Of a stretch of 64,000 nucleotides of DNA, positions 56,931-63,880 are shown piece by piece (position 1 is the stretch's first letter; every line of letters begins with the position of its first letter). A program made the position numbers and the translations under genes. This stretch comes from Thermodesulfovibrio sp. (GTDB lineage Bacteria > Nitrospirota > Thermodesulfovibrionia > Thermodesulfovibrionales > UBA6898). The DNA lies in the NCBI GenBank assembly GCA_013824615.1, contig PNOC01000001.1, positions 1-64,000 on the forward strand, given 5' to 3'. The notes beneath the pieces were generated by a model. That model was not told the origin of the DNA and did not search any database. It saw only the letters and a list, made by a program, of their open reading frames with translations.

Positions 56931-57785
56931 ATGAAGCAGATTGAATACAGAAAGATTCTTGCTGCAGTCAACGAACATGTCAACTCTGAAATATCGGCCC
57001 GGTTTGCCATACAGCTGGCAAAGGAAGCCGGATGCGGACTTTGCCTCTGTTTTGTCGCAGAGAAAAACCTTCCGGAAGATTCCCTTCGCCTGGCAGAAGA
57101 GGCTGCAAACAGGCTTTTTCACCGTGCAAAGCAGCTGGACGTTCCTGTCGAGATCATCCTTGCCCACGGAGATCCCGTGGACGAGATACAGAAACTTGTA
57201 TCCTCGGAAAATATCGATATCGTCTTCGCTGCGACACGTCATGAGGATATCGAAAAAAGGTTCTTCCAGGGGACAACAGCACGGCGTCTCTCGCTGTCGC
57301 TCTCCTGCTCTGTCGCTCTTGTCAGGGTTGTGCATATGGGACGAATTCATCCCGGGAAAATACTGGTACCGCTCAAGGCAGGGATTCGTCGCATTCAGGA
57401 AAAGGCCTATATTACGTCGATGCTGGCACGTTCCTTCGATTCCGGTGTTTATCTGCTTCACTCGACAAGACCGCTCATGCGCTTTTTTCACGGTGAGCTC
57501 CACCTTACTCCTGATGAATGGGAAACAAAGATTCCGAAAGATATATCGGACTTTATTAATTGCCTGGACGAGTACGGCATTGCGCACGAAAAAAAGCTTC
57601 TGCCAGGAAAGACCGGCAGAAATATAACGATTGAGGCTGCAGCCAGGAGACACGACCTGATCATCATGGGCGCCAGTGAGCGCGGCCTGCTTAATTCCAT
57701 TTTCAAAGGAAATCCGGTTGAAGAGGTGCTCAGGGATACGCCCTGCAACCTCATTATTCTGAAACTCCGTCATGAAGATACATAA
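56931..57785 (+). CDS. universal stress protein, tandem UspA domains
   Basis: The 284-aa protein has two Usp folds. The first covers residues 1-140 (RKILAAVNEHVNSEISARFA). The second has ILVPLKAGIRRIQEKAYI and ends with DLIIMGASERGLLNSIFKG followed by CNLIILKL. The ATP-binding GxxG-9x-G pattern is clear only in the second half. It overlaps the P-type ATPase gene by 14 nt, so the two are co-translated and may be functionally linked. Confidence 0.88.
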   Translation: MKQIEYRKILAAVNEHVNSEISARFAIQLAKEAGCGLCLCFVAEKNLPEDSLRLAEEAANRLFHRAKQLDVPVEIILAHGDPVDEIQKLVSSENIDIVFAATRHEDIEKRFFQGTTARRLSLSLSCSVALVRVVHMGRIHPGKILVPLKAGIRRIQEKAYITSMLARSFDSGVYLLHSTRPLMRFFHGELHLTPDEWETKIPKDISDFINCLDEYGIAHEKKLLPGKTGRNITIEAAARRHDLIIMGASERGLLNSIFKGNPVEEVLRDTPCNLIILKLRHEDT

Positions 57786-60435
57786 CCTCGCAAAAGATGC
57801 CGTATTTCAGACTCTTGTCACAGCAGAAAACGGTCTCTCGGAAGCGGAGGCAGCCAAGAGATTATCAGAATTCGGCCTGAACGAGATCAAAGAAGTCAGG
57901 AAGACACCCCTCTCTCTGAGGTTTCTGAAACAGTTCACTCATTTTCTGGCAATACTTCTTTTTATTGGGGCAGGACTTTCTTTTTTGTCGGATTATCTCC
58001 ATCCGGGAGAGGGAATGTTCAGCCTTGGAGTCGCCATTGTTGGGGTAATAATCATTAACGCGCTATTCACCTTTATCCAGGAATACAAGGCCGAAAAAAC
58101 CGTAGAGAAATTGCGGCAGTTTCTGCCCTTCTCGATAAGGACTATCCGGGATGGAAAGGAAAAAGAGATACCTTCAAAAGACGTTGTCCCCGGGGATATC
58201 ATCCTGCTCTCTGAGGGCATCAAGGTGCCTGCTGATTCCAGGCTGATAGAAGCCTCATATCTCATGGTGAATAATGCGCCGCTCACCGGTGAATCTGAGT
58301 CCGTTCTCCTGAACGTTGAACCATCAGAGGGTGAGCTGATCGAGAGCAAAAACATTGCTTTTGCCGGAGCCACCGTGATAAGCGGAACAGGCAAAGCGGT
58401 CGTCTTTGCCTCAGGCATGAGGACCGAGTTCGGCCGGATTGCCCATCTCACGAGCGCTGTGGAATCCGGTCTCAGTCCCCTTCAAAAGGAGATCGTAAAG
58501 GCAACGAGGGTTGTTGCCGCTATCGCTGCGTCCGTCGGCATTATCTTTTTCTGTCTCGGTCTCATAACCGGCAGAAATTTCTGGGACAATTTTATTTTTA
58601 CCATCGGTATCACCGTTGCCCTCATTCCGGAAGGCATGCTCCCCACGGTAACCCTGGCGCTGGCCATGGGAAGCCAGAGGATGGCGAAGAGAAAGGCGCT
58701 CATCAAGACGCTGACGTCGGTAGAAACACTCGGCTCGGTGACGGTGATCTGCACTGACAAGACGGGAACCCTTACCCAAAATAAAATGGATGTCCGGAAG
58801 GTCAGCACTGAAGGGCAGATCCTCGCTGCAGATAATCTGAAAAGTCTGGGTAATCACCCGATAATGAAAACAGCCCTTCTCTGCAATAATGCCCGCTTTG
58901 TCGATGGACTCTATACCGGAGACCCGACAGAAATAGCCCTGCTCAACGTAGCGCAGGCGCATACAGAAAATATCAGCGCAGCAAGGGTCTTCGAAATACC
59001 CTTTGATTCCGACAGAAAGAGGATGGTTACGGTCAATGTGGCGGATGGAAAGACCTGTGCCTACGCAAAAGGTGCAATCGAGGTCCTTCTGCCACTCTGC
59101 ACGCAGGTAGGCGGAGACAACGGAATAGTCCCCCTGGATGAGGACCAGAGGACAAAGGCTGTTGACACCTGTCACGCACTTATGGATGAGGGCCTCAGGG
59201 TGCTGGCCTTTGCTTACAAAGAAATTGATAGTTTTGACGTTAAAACCCCCGACCCGGCAGAGGTCGAAACAGGGCTTGTTTTTGCCGGACTTATCGGTCT
59301 TGAGGACCCACCCAGGCCCGAGGTCCGCGATGCGATCCAAAAGTGTAATGAGGCAGGCATAAAGGTAATTATGATCACTGGTGACGGTAGCAGGACTGCC
59401 ATTGCTATTGCCAGAGAGATAGGCCTGACTAAGGACACCCCCGTCGTTATCGAGGGAGTGAACTTTGAGCAGATGGATGATGCAGAACTGAAAAAAAGCC
59501 TCGCACAGCGGGAAGTTATCTTTGCAAGGATGGCCCCAAAGCATAAGATGCGCGTAGTGGCTGCACTCCAGGAAGAGGGCGAGGTTGTTGCCGTAACCGG
59601 TGACGGCGTCAATGACGCACCGGCACTGAAAAAGGCGGATATCGGCATTGCCATGGGAATATCCGGGACTGATGTTGCGAAGGAGGCATCGGATATGGTC
59701 CTTCTGGATGATAATTTCGCAACGATTGTCATTGCGGTTGAAGAAGGAAGGGCTGTATATGAGAATATAAAAAAGTTCATAACGTATATCTTCGCATCAA
59801 ATATTCCGGAGGCAATACCCTATCTTGCCTACATCCTCCTGAATATCCCTCTGCCTCTGACCATCCTGCAGATACTTGCCGTTGACCTGGGAACAGATAT
59901 GCTGCCGGCCCTGGCCCTGGGTGCAGAGAAGCCAACCCCCGGCATCATGAAACAGCCGCCCCGACGCAGGGGGGAACGGCTGCTGAATTTTGGCCTGCTG
60001 ACCCGAGCCTATCTCTTTCTGGGACCGCTTGAGGCCGTGGCCTGTATGTTCGGATTCTTCTGGGTCCTCCATCAGGGGGGATGGTTGTGGGGAGAAATTC
60101 CCAAACCGAACAGTATTCTCTATCTTCAGGCCACTACTGCCTGCCTGACCGCAATAGTACTGACTCAGATAGCCAATGTATTTGCCTGCAGATCTTTCAG
60201 CGAGTCTGTGGTGAGTCCTGGTTTCTTTTCGAACAAGTTGATCTTTGCAGGCATAGCCTTTGAGCTTCTGCTGCAGCTGTTAATCGTCTACACCCCCTGG
60301 GGAAACCGCATATTTTCAACAGCCCCGCTCAGTATCTCAGTATGGGGGATGCTCATACCTTTCATGTTTCTGCTCCTGTTTGCAGATGAGACGAGGAAGT
60401 TACTCTATCGCAGCAGAAGGGCTAAGACCGGATAG
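57772..60435 (+). CDS. P2-type cation ATPase of Na+,K+-ATPase-like (IIC) type
   Basis: The 887-aa pump opens with a cation_ATPase_N domain. It has the TGES actuator loop (APLTGESESVL), the phosphorylation site CTDKTGTLTQNKM (Asp near residue 328) and GDGVNDAPALKKADIG. Ion-site segments resemble Na+,K+-ATPase more than SERCA: M4 PEGMLPTVT, M5 SNIPEAIPYL and M6 DLGTDMLPALALG. In M8 the stretch TQIANVFACR aligns with the animal QWAD segment but has Asn where the third-Na+ Asp lies. No beta subunit is seen. A Ca2+ or H+ role is not excluded. Confidence 0.9.
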   Translation: MKIHNLAKDAVFQTLVTAENGLSEAEAAKRLSEFGLNEIKEVRKTPLSLRFLKQFTHFLAILLFIGAGLSFLSDYLHPGEGMFSLGVAIVGVIIINALFTFIQEYKAEKTVEKLRQFLPFSIRTIRDGKEKEIPSKDVVPGDIILLSEGIKVPADSRLIEASYLMVNNAPLTGESESVLLNVEPSEGELIESKNIAFAGATVISGTGKAVVFASGMRTEFGRIAHLTSAVESGLSPLQKEIVKATRVVAAIAASVGIIFFCLGLITGRNFWDNFIFTIGITVALIPEGMLPTVTLALAMGSQRMAKRKALIKTLTSVETLGSVTVICTDKTGTLTQNKMDVRKVSTEGQILAADNLKSLGNHPIMKTALLCNNARFVDGLYTGDPTEIALLNVAQAHTENISAARVFEIPFDSDRKRMVTVNVADGKTCAYAKGAIEVLLPLCTQVGGDNGIVPLDEDQRTKAVDTCHALMDEGLRVLAFAYKEIDSFDVKTPDPAEVETGLVFAGLIGLEDPPRPEVRDAIQKCNEAGIKVIMITGDGSRTAIAIAREIGLTKDTPVVIEGVNFEQMDDAELKKSLAQREVIFARMAPKHKMRVVAALQEEGEVVAVTGDGVNDAPALKKADIGIAMGISGTDVAKEASDMVLLDDNFATIVIAVEEGRAVYENIKKFITYIFASNIPEAIPYLAYILLNIPLPLTILQILAVDLGTDMLPALALGAEKPTPGIMKQPPRRRGERLLNFGLLTRAYLFLGPLEAVACMFGFFWVLHQGGWLWGEIPKPNSILYLQATTACLTAIVLTQIANVFACRSFSESVVSPGFFSNKLIFAGIAFELLLQLLIVYTPWGNRIFSTAPLSISVWGMLIPFMFLLLFADETRKLLYRSRRAKTG

Positions 60436-60470: not shown

Positions 60471-61184
60471 TTATCGGTCTTGCCCTGGTTCCATCCTAAG
60501 TCTGTACCCTATGCCGGGCTCGTTGATGAAAAACCGCGGCCTGGCCGGATCGGCCTCCAGCTTGTGGCGTATCTGAGCCATGTATATCCGCAAGTAGTGA
60601 GTCTGATCGGCATATCCTGGGCCCCATACCTCTTTCATAAGTTGGCTGTGCGTTATCACCTTCCCTGCATGTCTTATCAGGGTGGCCAGCAGCTTATATT
60701 CGATCGGGGTCACGTGGACTTCTTTCTCGTCGATAAATACCTGCCTCTTGGAAAAATCGACTTTGAGGTTTGCAAGGACAAAAACCGGCTCATCGCCCCC
60801 TGTCTGCTGCCGGGACAGATGACGGAGAGCCACACGAATTCGCGCCATTAGTTCTCCTGCGCCAAAGGGTTTTGTAAGATAATCATCAGCACCGGCATCG
60901 AGCGCCCGTATTTTGTCATTCTCCTGTTCCCTGGCTGAAATCACAATAACAGGAACGTGGCTCCACTCACGCAATCTTTTCGTAACTTCAATCCCATCGA
61001 TATCAGGAAGCCCAAGATCCAGCAGCACAATATCCGGATTGCGCGTTGCAGCCTCATTCAGTCCCTCCTGTCCGGATTGCGCCTCTATAAGCCTGTACCC
61101 GTGACCCTGAAGCGTTATCTTCAGGAATCTCCTCATCTGGGGCTCATCTTCGATCAAAAGAACCGTTGCCTTCTCGTCCGTCAT
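60471..61184 (-). CDS. kdpE: KdpE-type response regulator
   Basis: The 237-aa OmpR-class regulator has a receiver domain with phospho-Asp in LLDLGLPDIDG and the KPFGAGEL Lys. A winged-helix domain follows with VHVTPIEYKLLATLIRHAGKV and VWGPGYADQTHYLRIYMAQI, diagnostic for KdpE. It activates kdpFABC under K+ limitation. It overlaps kdpD by 4 nt. It is convergent with the P-type ATPase gene. Confidence 0.94.
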   Translation of the reverse strand: MTDEKATVLLIEDEPQMRRFLKITLQGHGYRLIEAQSGQEGLNEAATRNPDIVLLDLGLPDIDGIEVTKRLREWSHVPVIVISAREQENDKIRALDAGADDYLTKPFGAGELMARIRVALRHLSRQQTGGDEPVFVLANLKVDFSKRQVFIDEKEVHVTPIEYKLLATLIRHAGKVITHSQLMKEVWGPGYADQTHYLRIYMAQIRHKLEADPARPRFFINEPGIGYRLRMEPGQDR

Positions 61185-63880
61185 GGTACCTCGTCCGCTT
61201 CGATTTCCTGTTCCGGCCCTGGAGGTTCTTCTCCCACAGGGAGGGTGAATCTGAAAATAGCTCCACCGCCCTCGCGATTCTCAGACCAAATGCGTCCTCC
61301 ATGTGCGATGACAATCGCCCGACAGATCGTTAGTCCCAGTCCAATCCCTCCGCCGGCAGACGACCCCCGCATAAACTTTTCAAAAATGCTCTCTTCAGCG
61401 CCGTCAGGAATTCCGGGACCGCGGTCTGACAGTTCCACAACGACATAATCTCCCTGGACGACAGCGCTCAGCTCAAGAGGCGATACCGTTGGTGTATATT
61501 TGAGGGCGTTATCAAAGAGATTCATAAGTACCTGCTCAATGAGCAGAGGGTCAAAAGGGATGAGAGGCAGGTGTTCAGATAAGTCGATTTTGAGGGGACG
61601 GTCTTTGAGTCTGTCATGCAGCCTGTTAAGCACAACGCCGACGATCTCCTCAAGAGATTGCCATTCCTTTTTTACCGTAATTGCTTTGGACTCAAGTCGG
61701 GTCATATCGAGGACATTGCGGATGAGCTGGTTGAGATGGTCAGATTCCTCATAAATAGTCTGAATCAACTCGCGGCGATTAAACTGATCGAGAACAACGT
61801 CCTGCTGCAGCAAGGTCGATGCAGCCCCGGTAATGGCGGCCAGGGGAGTGCGCAGATCATGAGAAACCGAGCTGAGCATCGTATTGCGCAAGGTCTCGGT
61901 CTCTGCCTGAAGGAGGGCCTGCTGGGCCTCTTCGGCAAGAAAGGCGCGTTCAATTGCCAGTGCCGTCTGGTTTGCAAAACTCTCGAGTGCATGAACCTGA
62001 TCCTGATCAAAGGAAACAACGGCCGGCCCGGGAAGAATCCCCAATACCCCCACCGTCTTTGATGAGGCCACAAGGGGCAGATATAAGGCCTTTGACCCTG
62101 GCAGGGTATCTGTCCCAAGACCTGCGCGCTGATGATGGTCAAAGGTCCACTGGGCCACACTCGCCTCCCGCCGGTCCGGCGCAAAGGCGTTCGGCCCCAT
62201 AAACGGGACTTCCAGTATTCCTTTTTCGCCGGGGATGAGGACAACAGCCTTACTGGAGAAGACCTCGCCGATCTGTCGTATCGCGGCAGCGCTCAACCGG
62301 TCAAAGCCCCGCTCATGCGCAAGTTCACGGCTCAGGCTATACAAGGCGGCTGTCCTCCTTTCCCTTTGACGGGCGGCAGATGCCTGCTCACGCACCCGAA
62401 GGGTCAAGCTGCTGATCACCAGGGCAACAACAAACATGACGACAAATGAGACAAGATATTTTGCGTCACCAACGGCAAAAGTGAAAACAGGAGGAACAAA
62501 AAAGAAGTCAAACGCAGCAATACTCAAAACGGTTGCCAGAAGTGACGGACCCCTGCTGGTGAGGCTCGACGTAACTACAATGCCAAGGATATATACCATG
62601 GAAACGTCTACAAGAGTCACATACGGGGAAATAAGAGCGGCCAGCCCGGTGCTTCCTGCCACACCTCCAAGACTTAATAACCAGTCGCGAGTTCGCAACC
62701 GTTGCAATGCGGGTTTTGGAACAGGCGCAGGCAGGGCCTCGGCAGACTCTCCTGAAATTACATAAACATCAATATTGCCGCTTTCGCGGACAACTTCGTC
62801 CAGCAGAGAGCCGTAAATCCTGTCTTTCCAGCGGGGATGGGTGGGTTTTCCAACTATGAGCTTGGTGACATTTCTGGATCGGGCATAGTTCAGTATCTCC
62901 TCGCTTGCCTTATGCCCCGAGAGTGTCACAGTTTCAGCCCCCAGGCTCTCGGCCAGCCTCATATGCTCTGCCAACTGTCTCATATCAGCCTCTGACGGTT
63001 TCACCATGGCAGGGGCCTCAATGTTGACCGCAAGCCATTGAGCATGCAGACCTGCAGCCATCCGTTTGGCCGAACGAATCAGCCGTATGGAGCGGGGGTT
63101 TGCCCCAACGCAAACCATGATACGTTCACCTGCAGGCCAGATCTCCCGGACACCCTTGACCTGCCGGTAATCCTGCATCTGCTCGTCAACGCATTCTGCT
63201 GTCCGGCGCAGTGCAAGCTCGCGCAAGGCAAGCAGATTTCCCCTGCGGAAGAAATGCTGCCTGGCCCGATCCGCAAGTTCGGCCACATAGACCTTCCCCT
63301 CTTTGAGGCGCTGCAGGAGATCTTCCGGAGGAAGGTCGATGAGTTCAACCTCGTCGGCACGGTCGAGGACCAGGTCAGGCAGGGTTTCCCTCACGACAAC
63401 TCCGGTGATCTGGGAGACGACATCGTTGAGGCTCTCAACGTGCTGTACGTTCAAGGAAGCGTATACATTAATCCCCGCTGCCAACAACTCGAAGACGTCC
63501 TGCCAGCGCTTTTTATGCCGGGACCCGGGAGCATTAGTATGCGCAAGTTCGTCAATCAGGATTAACCCGGGTTTACGCTTCAGTGCTGCATCGAGATCGA
63601 ATTCACGAAGGATCGTACCGCTGTATTCAATTTCGCGACGGGGGATGATTTCAAGCCCTTCGACAAGCGCCTCGGTCTCCCTGCGGCCGTGGGTCTCAAC
63701 GATCCCTGCAGCGACGTCAATCCCCTCAGACCGTTTCTCGCGTGCAGCCGCGAGCATGGCATAGGTTTTGCCGACACCGGGCGCAGCTCCAAAAAATATC
63801 TTCAGTTTTCCCTGTTGCTCGCGCTCCTCGTCAACCTTCAACTGCGCCAACAGTTCGTCAGGGCTGGGACGATTGTCCAT
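61181..63880 (-). CDS. kdpD: KdpD sensor histidine kinase
   Basis: The 899-aa protein starts with the KdpD domain (FFGAAPGVGKTYAMLAAA, then DELAHTNAPGSRHKKRWQD). A Usp-like domain follows (about 250-370), then four helices of the DUF4118 region (about 395-500), a GAF domain and a histidine kinase core. The phospho-His is in SSVSHDLRTPLAAI and the ATP site has GPGIPDG and GGIGLGLTIC. It senses K+ or turgor. kdpFABC are not in the window and could lie beyond the right edge. GGAG precedes the ATG. Confidence 0.95.
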   Translation of the reverse strand: MDNRPSPDELLAQLKVDEEREQQGKLKIFFGAAPGVGKTYAMLAAAREKRSEGIDVAAGIVETHGRRETEALVEGLEIIPRREIEYSGTILREFDLDAALKRKPGLILIDELAHTNAPGSRHKKRWQDVFELLAAGINVYASLNVQHVESLNDVVSQITGVVVRETLPDLVLDRADEVELIDLPPEDLLQRLKEGKVYVAELADRARQHFFRRGNLLALRELALRRTAECVDEQMQDYRQVKGVREIWPAGERIMVCVGANPRSIRLIRSAKRMAAGLHAQWLAVNIEAPAMVKPSEADMRQLAEHMRLAESLGAETVTLSGHKASEEILNYARSRNVTKLIVGKPTHPRWKDRIYGSLLDEVVRESGNIDVYVISGESAEALPAPVPKPALQRLRTRDWLLSLGGVAGSTGLAALISPYVTLVDVSMVYILGIVVTSSLTSRGPSLLATVLSIAAFDFFFVPPVFTFAVGDAKYLVSFVVMFVVALVISSLTLRVREQASAARQRERRTAALYSLSRELAHERGFDRLSAAAIRQIGEVFSSKAVVLIPGEKGILEVPFMGPNAFAPDRREASVAQWTFDHHQRAGLGTDTLPGSKALYLPLVASSKTVGVLGILPGPAVVSFDQDQVHALESFANQTALAIERAFLAEEAQQALLQAETETLRNTMLSSVSHDLRTPLAAITGAASTLLQQDVVLDQFNRRELIQTIYEESDHLNQLIRNVLDMTRLESKAITVKKEWQSLEEIVGVVLNRLHDRLKDRPLKIDLSEHLPLIPFDPLLIEQVLMNLFDNALKYTPTVSPLELSAVVQGDYVVVELSDRGPGIPDGAEESIFEKFMRGSSAGGGIGLGLTICRAIVIAHGGRIWSENREGGGAIFRFTLPVGEEPPGPEQEIEADEVP

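Follow-up and report, generated by a model that had tools for sequence, protein, structure and literature searches.

We describe a P-type ATPase gene and its upstream partner in a 64,000-nucleotide stretch of DNA from Thermodesulfovibrio sp. (phylum Nitrospirota; contig PNOC01000001.1 of assembly GCA_013824615.1, positions 1 to 64,000; hereafter the window), and find that, in 77 Nitrospirota pumps of this kind, the history of the membrane core differs from that of the cytosolic scaffold. The window pump gene (57772..60435, plus strand) is a complete open reading frame (ORF) with an ATG start that encodes 887 amino acids, and its product is assigned as a P2C-like P-type ATPase from the ORF, Pfam and PDB matches, a tree and a structural model. 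The gene before it (56931..57785, plus strand) encodes a tandem universal stress protein (Usp) of 284 amino acids with two Pfam Usp stretches, and its stop codon lies 14 nucleotides inside the pump gene, an overlap already read correctly in a prediction made from the sequence alone (the original prediction). We consider it probable that the single-chain ATPase and its tandem Usp partner form a unit that serves in Nitrospirota as a fixed chassis, the ion-binding membrane DNA of which is exchanged.

The comparison drew on 105 unique loci of the Nitrospirota set (107 less the duplicates L050 and L215, and including L052 from Geobacter and L054 from Desulfuromonadales), 79 of which scored at least 1040 bits; removal of L033, which is cut by a contig end, and of L138, which looks complete, left 77 pumps. 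Ion-site positions are given in pig numbering, which is consistent with the shark numbers minus 7 in the accessible part of PMC8481561. By site type, the set comprises 58 SNxPE, 9 SNxAE and 10 H pumps, and the first sign of discordance came from an alignment of orthologues, in which pumps with the same partner and the same place differed in the ion site. Even with the ion-site columns removed from the membrane alignment, the three site types required only 2 changes on the membrane tree (support 100/100 for the H group and 99/96 for the SNxAE group), compared with 15 on the cytosolic tree; on the starred branches of the latter alone, at least 6 changes were needed for H, at least 4 for SNxAE and at least 8 for SNxPE. 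When the SNxPE pumps were split by their residue in transmembrane helix M4, the resulting four core types required 21 changes on the cytosolic and 5 on the membrane tree. Approximately unbiased (AU) tests, conducted on 29 rows chosen out of the 77 pumps, gave the same picture. The cytosolic data rejected a single H clade (p 2.7e-5) and a single SNxAE clade (p 7e-53), and the membrane data rejected three groups defined by the scaffold, namely L031/L042/L045 (p 9e-37), L047/L187/L156/L164 (p 4e-86) and, less strongly, L040/L134/L148/L149 (p 0.013). Further, Usp identity correlates with that of the scaffold at 0.56 and with that of the membrane core at 0.35. Because the nearest scaffold to that of the window pump (LIPEG/SNIPEA) is found in the H-type pump L044 of the same genus and its nearest membrane core in L030, we conclude that the window locus takes part in the exchange pattern.

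The discordance can be located on the DNA. Between L042 and L045, which belong to one genus and both stand beside kdpDE, identity is 96% in the actuator (A) domain and 92% in P2 (94% for A and P2 together), as against 67% in M3-M4, 61% in M5-M6 and 54% in M7-M10, whereas L045 and L044 are 94% alike in M5-M6 and 64% alike in the A domain. In general, related pumps share Usp and scaffold, and codons ~241-285 and ~661-840 fall to 47-78% nucleotide identity. The nucleotide profile of L042/L045 runs at 67-90% through Usp, mostly at 77-92% through the scaffold and at 78-92% on the kdpED side, with two tract dips of 61-74% and 47-63%; that of L187/L156 is mostly 87-99% in the scaffold, 59-78% in codons 210-300, 50-69% in codons 660-840 and 90-100% in the last codons. 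Change-point fits to the pairs L042/L045, L042/L031, L045/L031 and L187/L156 placed the ends of the first tract at ~220/241 and 270-294 and those of the second at 650-676 and at codon 801, codon 837 or the gene end; in same-type pairs, the fits found only a dip in the nucleotide-binding (N) domain or small dips elsewhere. Projected from these relatives onto the window pump, the first exchanged tract covers codons 241-285 (58492..58626, plus strand), which in the model form M3 and the first half of M4 and carry the M4 residue at the place of Asn324/gastric Tyr340. The second covers codons 661-837 (59752..60282, plus strand), from the middle of M5 through M8 into the beginning of M9 in the model, with a right end that varies between 801, 837 and the gene end; its left end coincides with the M5 site or slightly precedes it, and the M5, M6 and M8 sites are inside the tract.

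Like cores on unlike scaffolds could also be produced by convergent amino acid selection on the membrane helices, with no recombination, and selection on ion sites is strong; moreover, His or Lys at the Ser775 position occurs in separate lineages as well (Actinomycetota and locus L193, respectively). This explanation is, however, highly improbable given that the membrane tree sorts the types without the ion-site columns and that the tracts lose identity even at codons for the same amino acid, which refutes convergence for the clear pairs. At unchanged amino acids, L187 and L156 have identical codons at 85% of scaffold positions, at 47% in M3-M4 (p 4e-7) and at 49% in M5-M8 (p 5e-13), and L040 and L149 at 90%, 77% (p 0.013) and 41% (p 2e-26), respectively. 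Third-position identity of L187/L156 is likewise high in M1-M2 and in the first segment of the A domain (91-97%) and low in M3-M4 (43%) and M5-M8 (38-42%). Among pairs with at least 60% scaffold codon identity, 9 of the 10 different-type pairs and none of the 16 same-type pairs lose more than 20 points in M5-M8. As the control, we used 19 P2A paralogues from the same genome set. At a scaffold identity of at least 65%, none of the 121 control pairs had a membrane drop of more than 20 points (at 50-65%, 8 of 49 pairs did, all between distant paralogues), whereas the same threshold gave 141 among 1021 different-type pairs of pumps and none among 1471 same-type pairs; the scaffold-membrane identity correlation is 0.83 for the control paralogues and 0.40 for the pumps. 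Since identical-codon rates also fall in the tracts, the pattern points to DNA exchange and not to convergence. Relatives of the pump at E <= 1e-225 were detected in 165 of 395 phylum genomes sampled, one each among the genomes listed except for two in G150, and because the pumps are thus nearly always single-copy at this score, we infer homologous recombination between species as the exchange route.

Several points weigh against the exchange reading. The AU groups were picked after the trees had been seen, and the bootstrap of the cytosolic tree had not settled; the ten informative different-type pairs represent three related groups and not ten independent events; the codon drop is not significant for L145/L133 (p 0.33 and 0.15) and weak for L042/L031 (p 0.34 and 0.03); the downstream side of L040/L149 is unalignable, so that only the left breakpoint is visible; and many source genomes are draft assemblies in which chimeric assembly is possible. 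The last point raises the explanation that the mosaics are artefacts, that is, chimeric contigs or mis-binned metagenome pieces, and one of L047 and L187 may indeed be mis-binned because the two are 93% alike and yet assigned to different families. We nevertheless regard an artefact as quite unlikely: a mosaic has two foreign tracts that are separated from each other and flanked on their outer sides by native sequence, the contigs of L045 and L042 measure 197,065 and 213,825 bases, the breakpoints fall at similar codons in separate groups and the pattern is missing from the P2A control. Further, L187 and L047, as two assemblies that are 93% alike over most of the pump, carry the same mosaic. 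For these two H-type pumps, recent whole-pump transfer would be the alternative to mis-binning.

At least four core types are exchanged in this manner, namely NVPEG/SNIPEI, LIPEG/SNIPEA (that of the window pump), LVPEG/SN[VI]AEL and NVPEG/H[GL]T[PA]E with DLGTE, and all four occur within genus g5 and three in genus g23. The two tracts appear to be matched: in the SNxPE pumps that have Ile or Ala at residue 681, Asn in M4 is paired with Ile in 28 of 30 and Leu in M4 with Ala in 27 of 27 (Fisher 3e-14, with relatedness between pumps not removed), which could reflect selection for matched tracts. One may ask whether core exchange is neutral, with His and Ser cores pumping the same ions. The positions of Glu327, Tyr771, Glu779, Asp804, Gln923 and Glu954 are constant in 77/77 pumps, as neutrality would have it, but all 10 H-type pumps have His for Ser775 and Glu for Asp808 (and Gly or Leu at Asn776), and in the gastric pump Lys791, which matches the His position, sets the number of K+ together with its neighbours, according to the accessible part of PMC8481561. 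Neutral exchange is therefore rather unlikely in our judgement. Basic residues at this place are also seen elsewhere. Locus L193 (G150:C1:68059-70680) encodes a P2C-like pump with Lys at the Ser775/Lys791 place and Glu at the Asp804/Glu820 place, and its M5-M6 stretch scores 105 bits against gastric H+,K+-ATPase compared with 98 against sodium pumps; it is the second pump of genome G150 and has no Usp beside it, the Usp-linked SNIAE pump of that genome being on contig C37. The Lys type is known from this one pump in one genome, and a search of 175 genomes of the order for further Lys-type pumps returned only the L193 locus as nearly identical, the other matches being at most 65% identical to the queried stretch and not each read for Lys. 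The actinomycetotal pumps L075, L077, L079, L081 and L082 have His at the Ser775 place (HTTPE, HAVPE or HATPE) and form their own clade; a single clade of Nitrospirota and actinobacterial His cores was neither demonstrated nor rejected by the membrane data (p 0.154) and was rejected by the cytosolic data (p 0.00026).

We also asked where the window pump stands among P2 ATPases. Pfam families PF00122, PF00702, PF00690 and PF00689 all score above their cut-offs, giving the E1-E2 ATPase and the N- and C-terminal cation-ATPase domains of a P2-type ATPase, together with the motif DKTGT (58756..58770, plus strand; read in the sequence), the Asp of which (D329) is the phosphorylation site of P-type ATPases. 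The whole-protein PDB ranking is headed by Na+,K+-ATPase alpha-3 (539 bits), followed by Listeria LMCA1 (501), SPCA1 (452) and SERCA (412). In a quick, unrooted tree with Artemia Na+,K+-ATPase (alpha2KK) and Listeria LMCA1 as references, a branch with full support (100) in the Shimodaira-Hasegawa-like approximate likelihood ratio test (SH-aLRT) separates alpha2KK and 41 bacterial P2C-like rows, selected from those fetched, from 24 P2A-like and other rows, LMCA1 among them. The P2C-like assignment of the original prediction is thus borne out, the pump grouping with the Artemia sodium pump and apart from LMCA1; placement within the bacterial Ca2+ (IIA) ATPases was looked for and is absent from this quick tree. 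A model predicted by AlphaFold from 60 sequences (mean predicted local distance difference test score, pLDDT, 86; 57 when built from 12 sequences) had as its top Foldseek row 8jbk, a Na+,K+-ATPase E1.3Na+ structure, with a template modelling (TM) score of 0.90, and VIA-align gave Z 42.8 for the top row and 39.4 for LMCA1, so that the fold ranking separates P2C from P2A weakly.

If the protein were a Ca2+ (P2A) pump whose site is atypical, this would account for the best NCBIfam match, the PMR1-type Ca2+ ATPase model TIGR01522, which counts against the P2C-like placement although its 646 bits are below the cut-off of 798. The Na,H/K alpha model TIGR01106 (624 bits; cut-off 946), by which the pump is not an animal Na+,K+-ATPase, and TIGR01116 (532; cut-off 703) also remain below theirs. 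However, tree placement and the M6 site, which reads DLGTD in the window pump and NLVTD in the P2A paralogue of the same genome, so that the P2A pattern NxxTD is missing, make a P2A pump improbable, as do, more weakly in the case of fold, the PDB and Foldseek rankings; as a candidate, a calcium pump was rejected on tree placement and ion-site residues. In the stretch L010:2494-7328 (G000:C4), the same genome's P2A-like ATPase stands behind two membrane-protein ORFs that resemble TerC and UPF0016/TMEM165. In the reference tree, the animal sodium pump has as its nearest bacterial rows L048 (G012, of the window's family) and L060 (Amylibacter), with unstarred supports of 91 and 93 on a long branch; L060 has Asp at the Asp926 place. 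The description of the window pump as ancestral-type finds no support, the tree being unrooted, and no single whole-gene tree can give the ancestry of the family because the membrane core is exchanged.

The ion-site residues of the window pump, all taken from the alignment, resemble those of sodium pumps. The stretches named in the original prediction (PEGMLPTVT, SNIPEAIPYL, DLGTDMLPAL and TQIANVF) are all present in the translation, and in a HMMER alignment with Na+,K+-ATPase alpha-3, SNIPE of the M5 site (YIFASNIPE, residues 672-680; 59785..59811, plus strand) and DLGTDM of M6 (DLGTD, residues 705-709; 59884..59898, plus strand) stand opposite identical residues. In the M4 site (LIPEG, residues 284-288; 58621..58635, plus strand), Leu284 stands opposite the Asn of VANVPEG, an incomplete match to the sodium pump; the accessible text of PMC8481561 reports that gastric Tyr340, the counterpart of this position, affects the second K+ site. 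In M8 (QIAN, residues 799-802; 60166..60177, plus strand), TQIANVF aligns with VQWADLI, the Gln being retained and the Asp of the third Na+ site replaced by Asn. Overall, the pump retains Glu327, Tyr771, Ser775, Asn776, Glu779, Asp804, Asp808, Gln923 and Glu954, including all six of the site I and II residues (Glu327, Ser775, Asn776, Glu779, Asp804 and Asp808), and differs at four others, with Leu for Asn324, Ile for Thr772, Ala for Thr774 and Asn for Asp926. The residue at the Glu954 position, Glu831 of M9 (60262..60264, plus strand), is Glu in 77/77 pumps, and the Asp926 position is Asn in 73/77, the window pump included, and Thr in 4/77, so that the animal-type Asp is found in none. Judged by the residues kept and departed from, the sodium-pump pattern was called correctly for M5, M6 and the M8 Asn and nearly so for M4, where Leu284 is the flaw. 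The original prediction's statement that there is no beta subunit agrees with the sequences: SYGQ/SYGE, the alpha/beta assembly motif according to the part of PMC9609216 that was accessible, occurs in none of the 77 pumps, including that of the window.

From these residues, export of Na+ (or H+) with counter-import of K+ is the most likely activity of the window pump. Sites I and II would be sodium-pump-like and the third Na+ site weakened by the Asp-to-Asn change, because of which a stoichiometry below 3Na+:2K+ is likely. As we picture the exchange, Usp, M1-M2 and the A, phosphorylation (P) and N domains would stay put, and the DNA of M3-M4 and of M5-M8/M10, which holds the ion-binding residues, would be swapped by homologous recombination between species, replacing Ser/Asp sodium-pump-like cores by His/Glu cores. 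The ion or the stoichiometry may change with the core and, by analogy, the H-type core (His at Ser775, Glu at Asp808) may favour H+ over Na+. We put forward only tentatively the further proposal that the usp-pump locus serves in nature to exchange ion specificity: a single chassis for regulation and ATP hydrolysis would take up interchangeable membrane cores by recombination and so switch in one step between sodium-pump-like (Ser/Asp) and proton-pump-like (His/Glu) modes of K+ counter-transport, and the two tracts would have to arrive together and matched (M4 residue 284 with M5). Changes of ion or stoichiometry in P2 pumps are normally probed by point mutation, whereas related bacteria appear to have swapped whole cores many times, and core exchange may thus be a natural way of changing the pumped ion. 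With naturally matched pairs available within one genus, the determinants of Na+ versus H+ and of K+ number become directly testable. Whole-gene trees of P2C pumps mix two histories and should be read with that warning in mind.

The constant part of the locus extends to the Usp gene and no further. A same-strand tandem Usp stands directly upstream at 76/76 loci of at least 1040 bits with flank (3 more lack flank), at 7/12 loci of 950-1040 bits and at 3/14 below 950 bits. The pump start could be called by pattern in 56/86 Usp-linked pumps, and 39 of these 56 overlap usp by 1 to 14 nucleotides; usp and pump may be co-translated. Outside the phylum, the pairing is found in the Geobacter (L052) and Desulfuromonadales (L054) genomes and was not seen in other P2C-like loci, several of which have little flank. 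In L235 (G019:C105) and L049 (G031:C67), the pump gene is split in two frames, as by a frameshift, a pseudogene or an assembly error. Behind the window pump, convergent and on the minus strand, lie the genes for the response regulator KdpE (60471..61184), a local association only, and the sensor kinase KdpD (61181..63880), next door as originally described, followed beyond the window by kdpC, kdpB and kdpA. kdpE adjoins the pump in only 6/97 loci with flank (L009, L031, L042, L043, L044 and L045), all in genera g1 and g5 of the window's family. A general tie to kdpDE is accordingly not upheld, and kdpDE was rejected as a general functional partner; of the usp-ATPase-kdpDE synteny, the usp part is conserved and the kdpDE part is not. 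From these counts, we conclude that the conserved unit is usp-pump and that the kdp genes adjoin it only locally.

The Usp probably has a regulatory or stabilising effect on the pump. The ATP-binding motif of Usp proteins is GxxGx9G[ST]; the pattern (with G[STN] allowed) is present in 5/86 Usp partners and has no match in the window Usp, the second domain of which reads GASERGLLNSIFKGN at the canonical place. A role for these partners as canonical ATP-binding sensors was rejected on this count. A PDB search with the Usp gave a weak match only. At the locus, we found no Rfam family and no tRNA and, near the usp start, no terminator and one minus-strand promoter-like match inside the start of usp.

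Compared with known systems, the discordance of core and scaffold is new, whereas P2C-like pumps of prokaryotes have been described before. We found no report of core exchange at a Usp-linked locus in the literature searched, which did not extend to subscription papers, and nothing on P-type pumps in the accessible part of a Nitrospira marina paper. Animal Na+,K+-ATPase alpha (P2C) resembles the window pump in M5 SNIPE, M6 DLGTDM, M8 Gln and M9 Glu; unlike it, the window pump has 887 amino acids, lacks SYGQ/SYGE, scores below the TIGR01106 cut-off and differs at Asp926, Asn324, Thr772 and Thr774. LMCA1 and the same genome's P2A paralogue (G000:C4:4566-7328) are likewise bacterial single-chain P2 ATPases but lie across the fully supported branch and have NLV[TN]D in M6. 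The prokaryotic Na,K-ATPase alpha-like proteins, in the accessible parts of PMC9609216 and PMC10654040, are single chains without the beta motif and with sodium-pump-like sites; the methanogen proteins of the latter keep all Na+ and K+ site residues, whereas the window pump has Asn at the third-site Asp and an exchangeable core. The residue logic that distinguishes Na+,K+- from H+,K+-ATPases is known, and a second K+ for the gastric pump required five mutations, as the available text of PMC8481561 states. L193 shares Lys791 and Glu820 with gastric H+,K+-ATPase alpha, and the H-type pumps share with it a basic residue at the same M5 position but differ in that this residue is His, the Glu820 position has Asp, the Asp824 position has Glu and the beta-subunit motif is absent. 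In Artemia Na+,K+-ATPase alpha2KK, variation is likewise found at the Asn position of M4 and in M5 beside Ser775 (VAKVPEG and SKIPE); there, however, the change is two Lys residues in one animal isoform, whereas in the bacterial pumps whole cores are exchanged.

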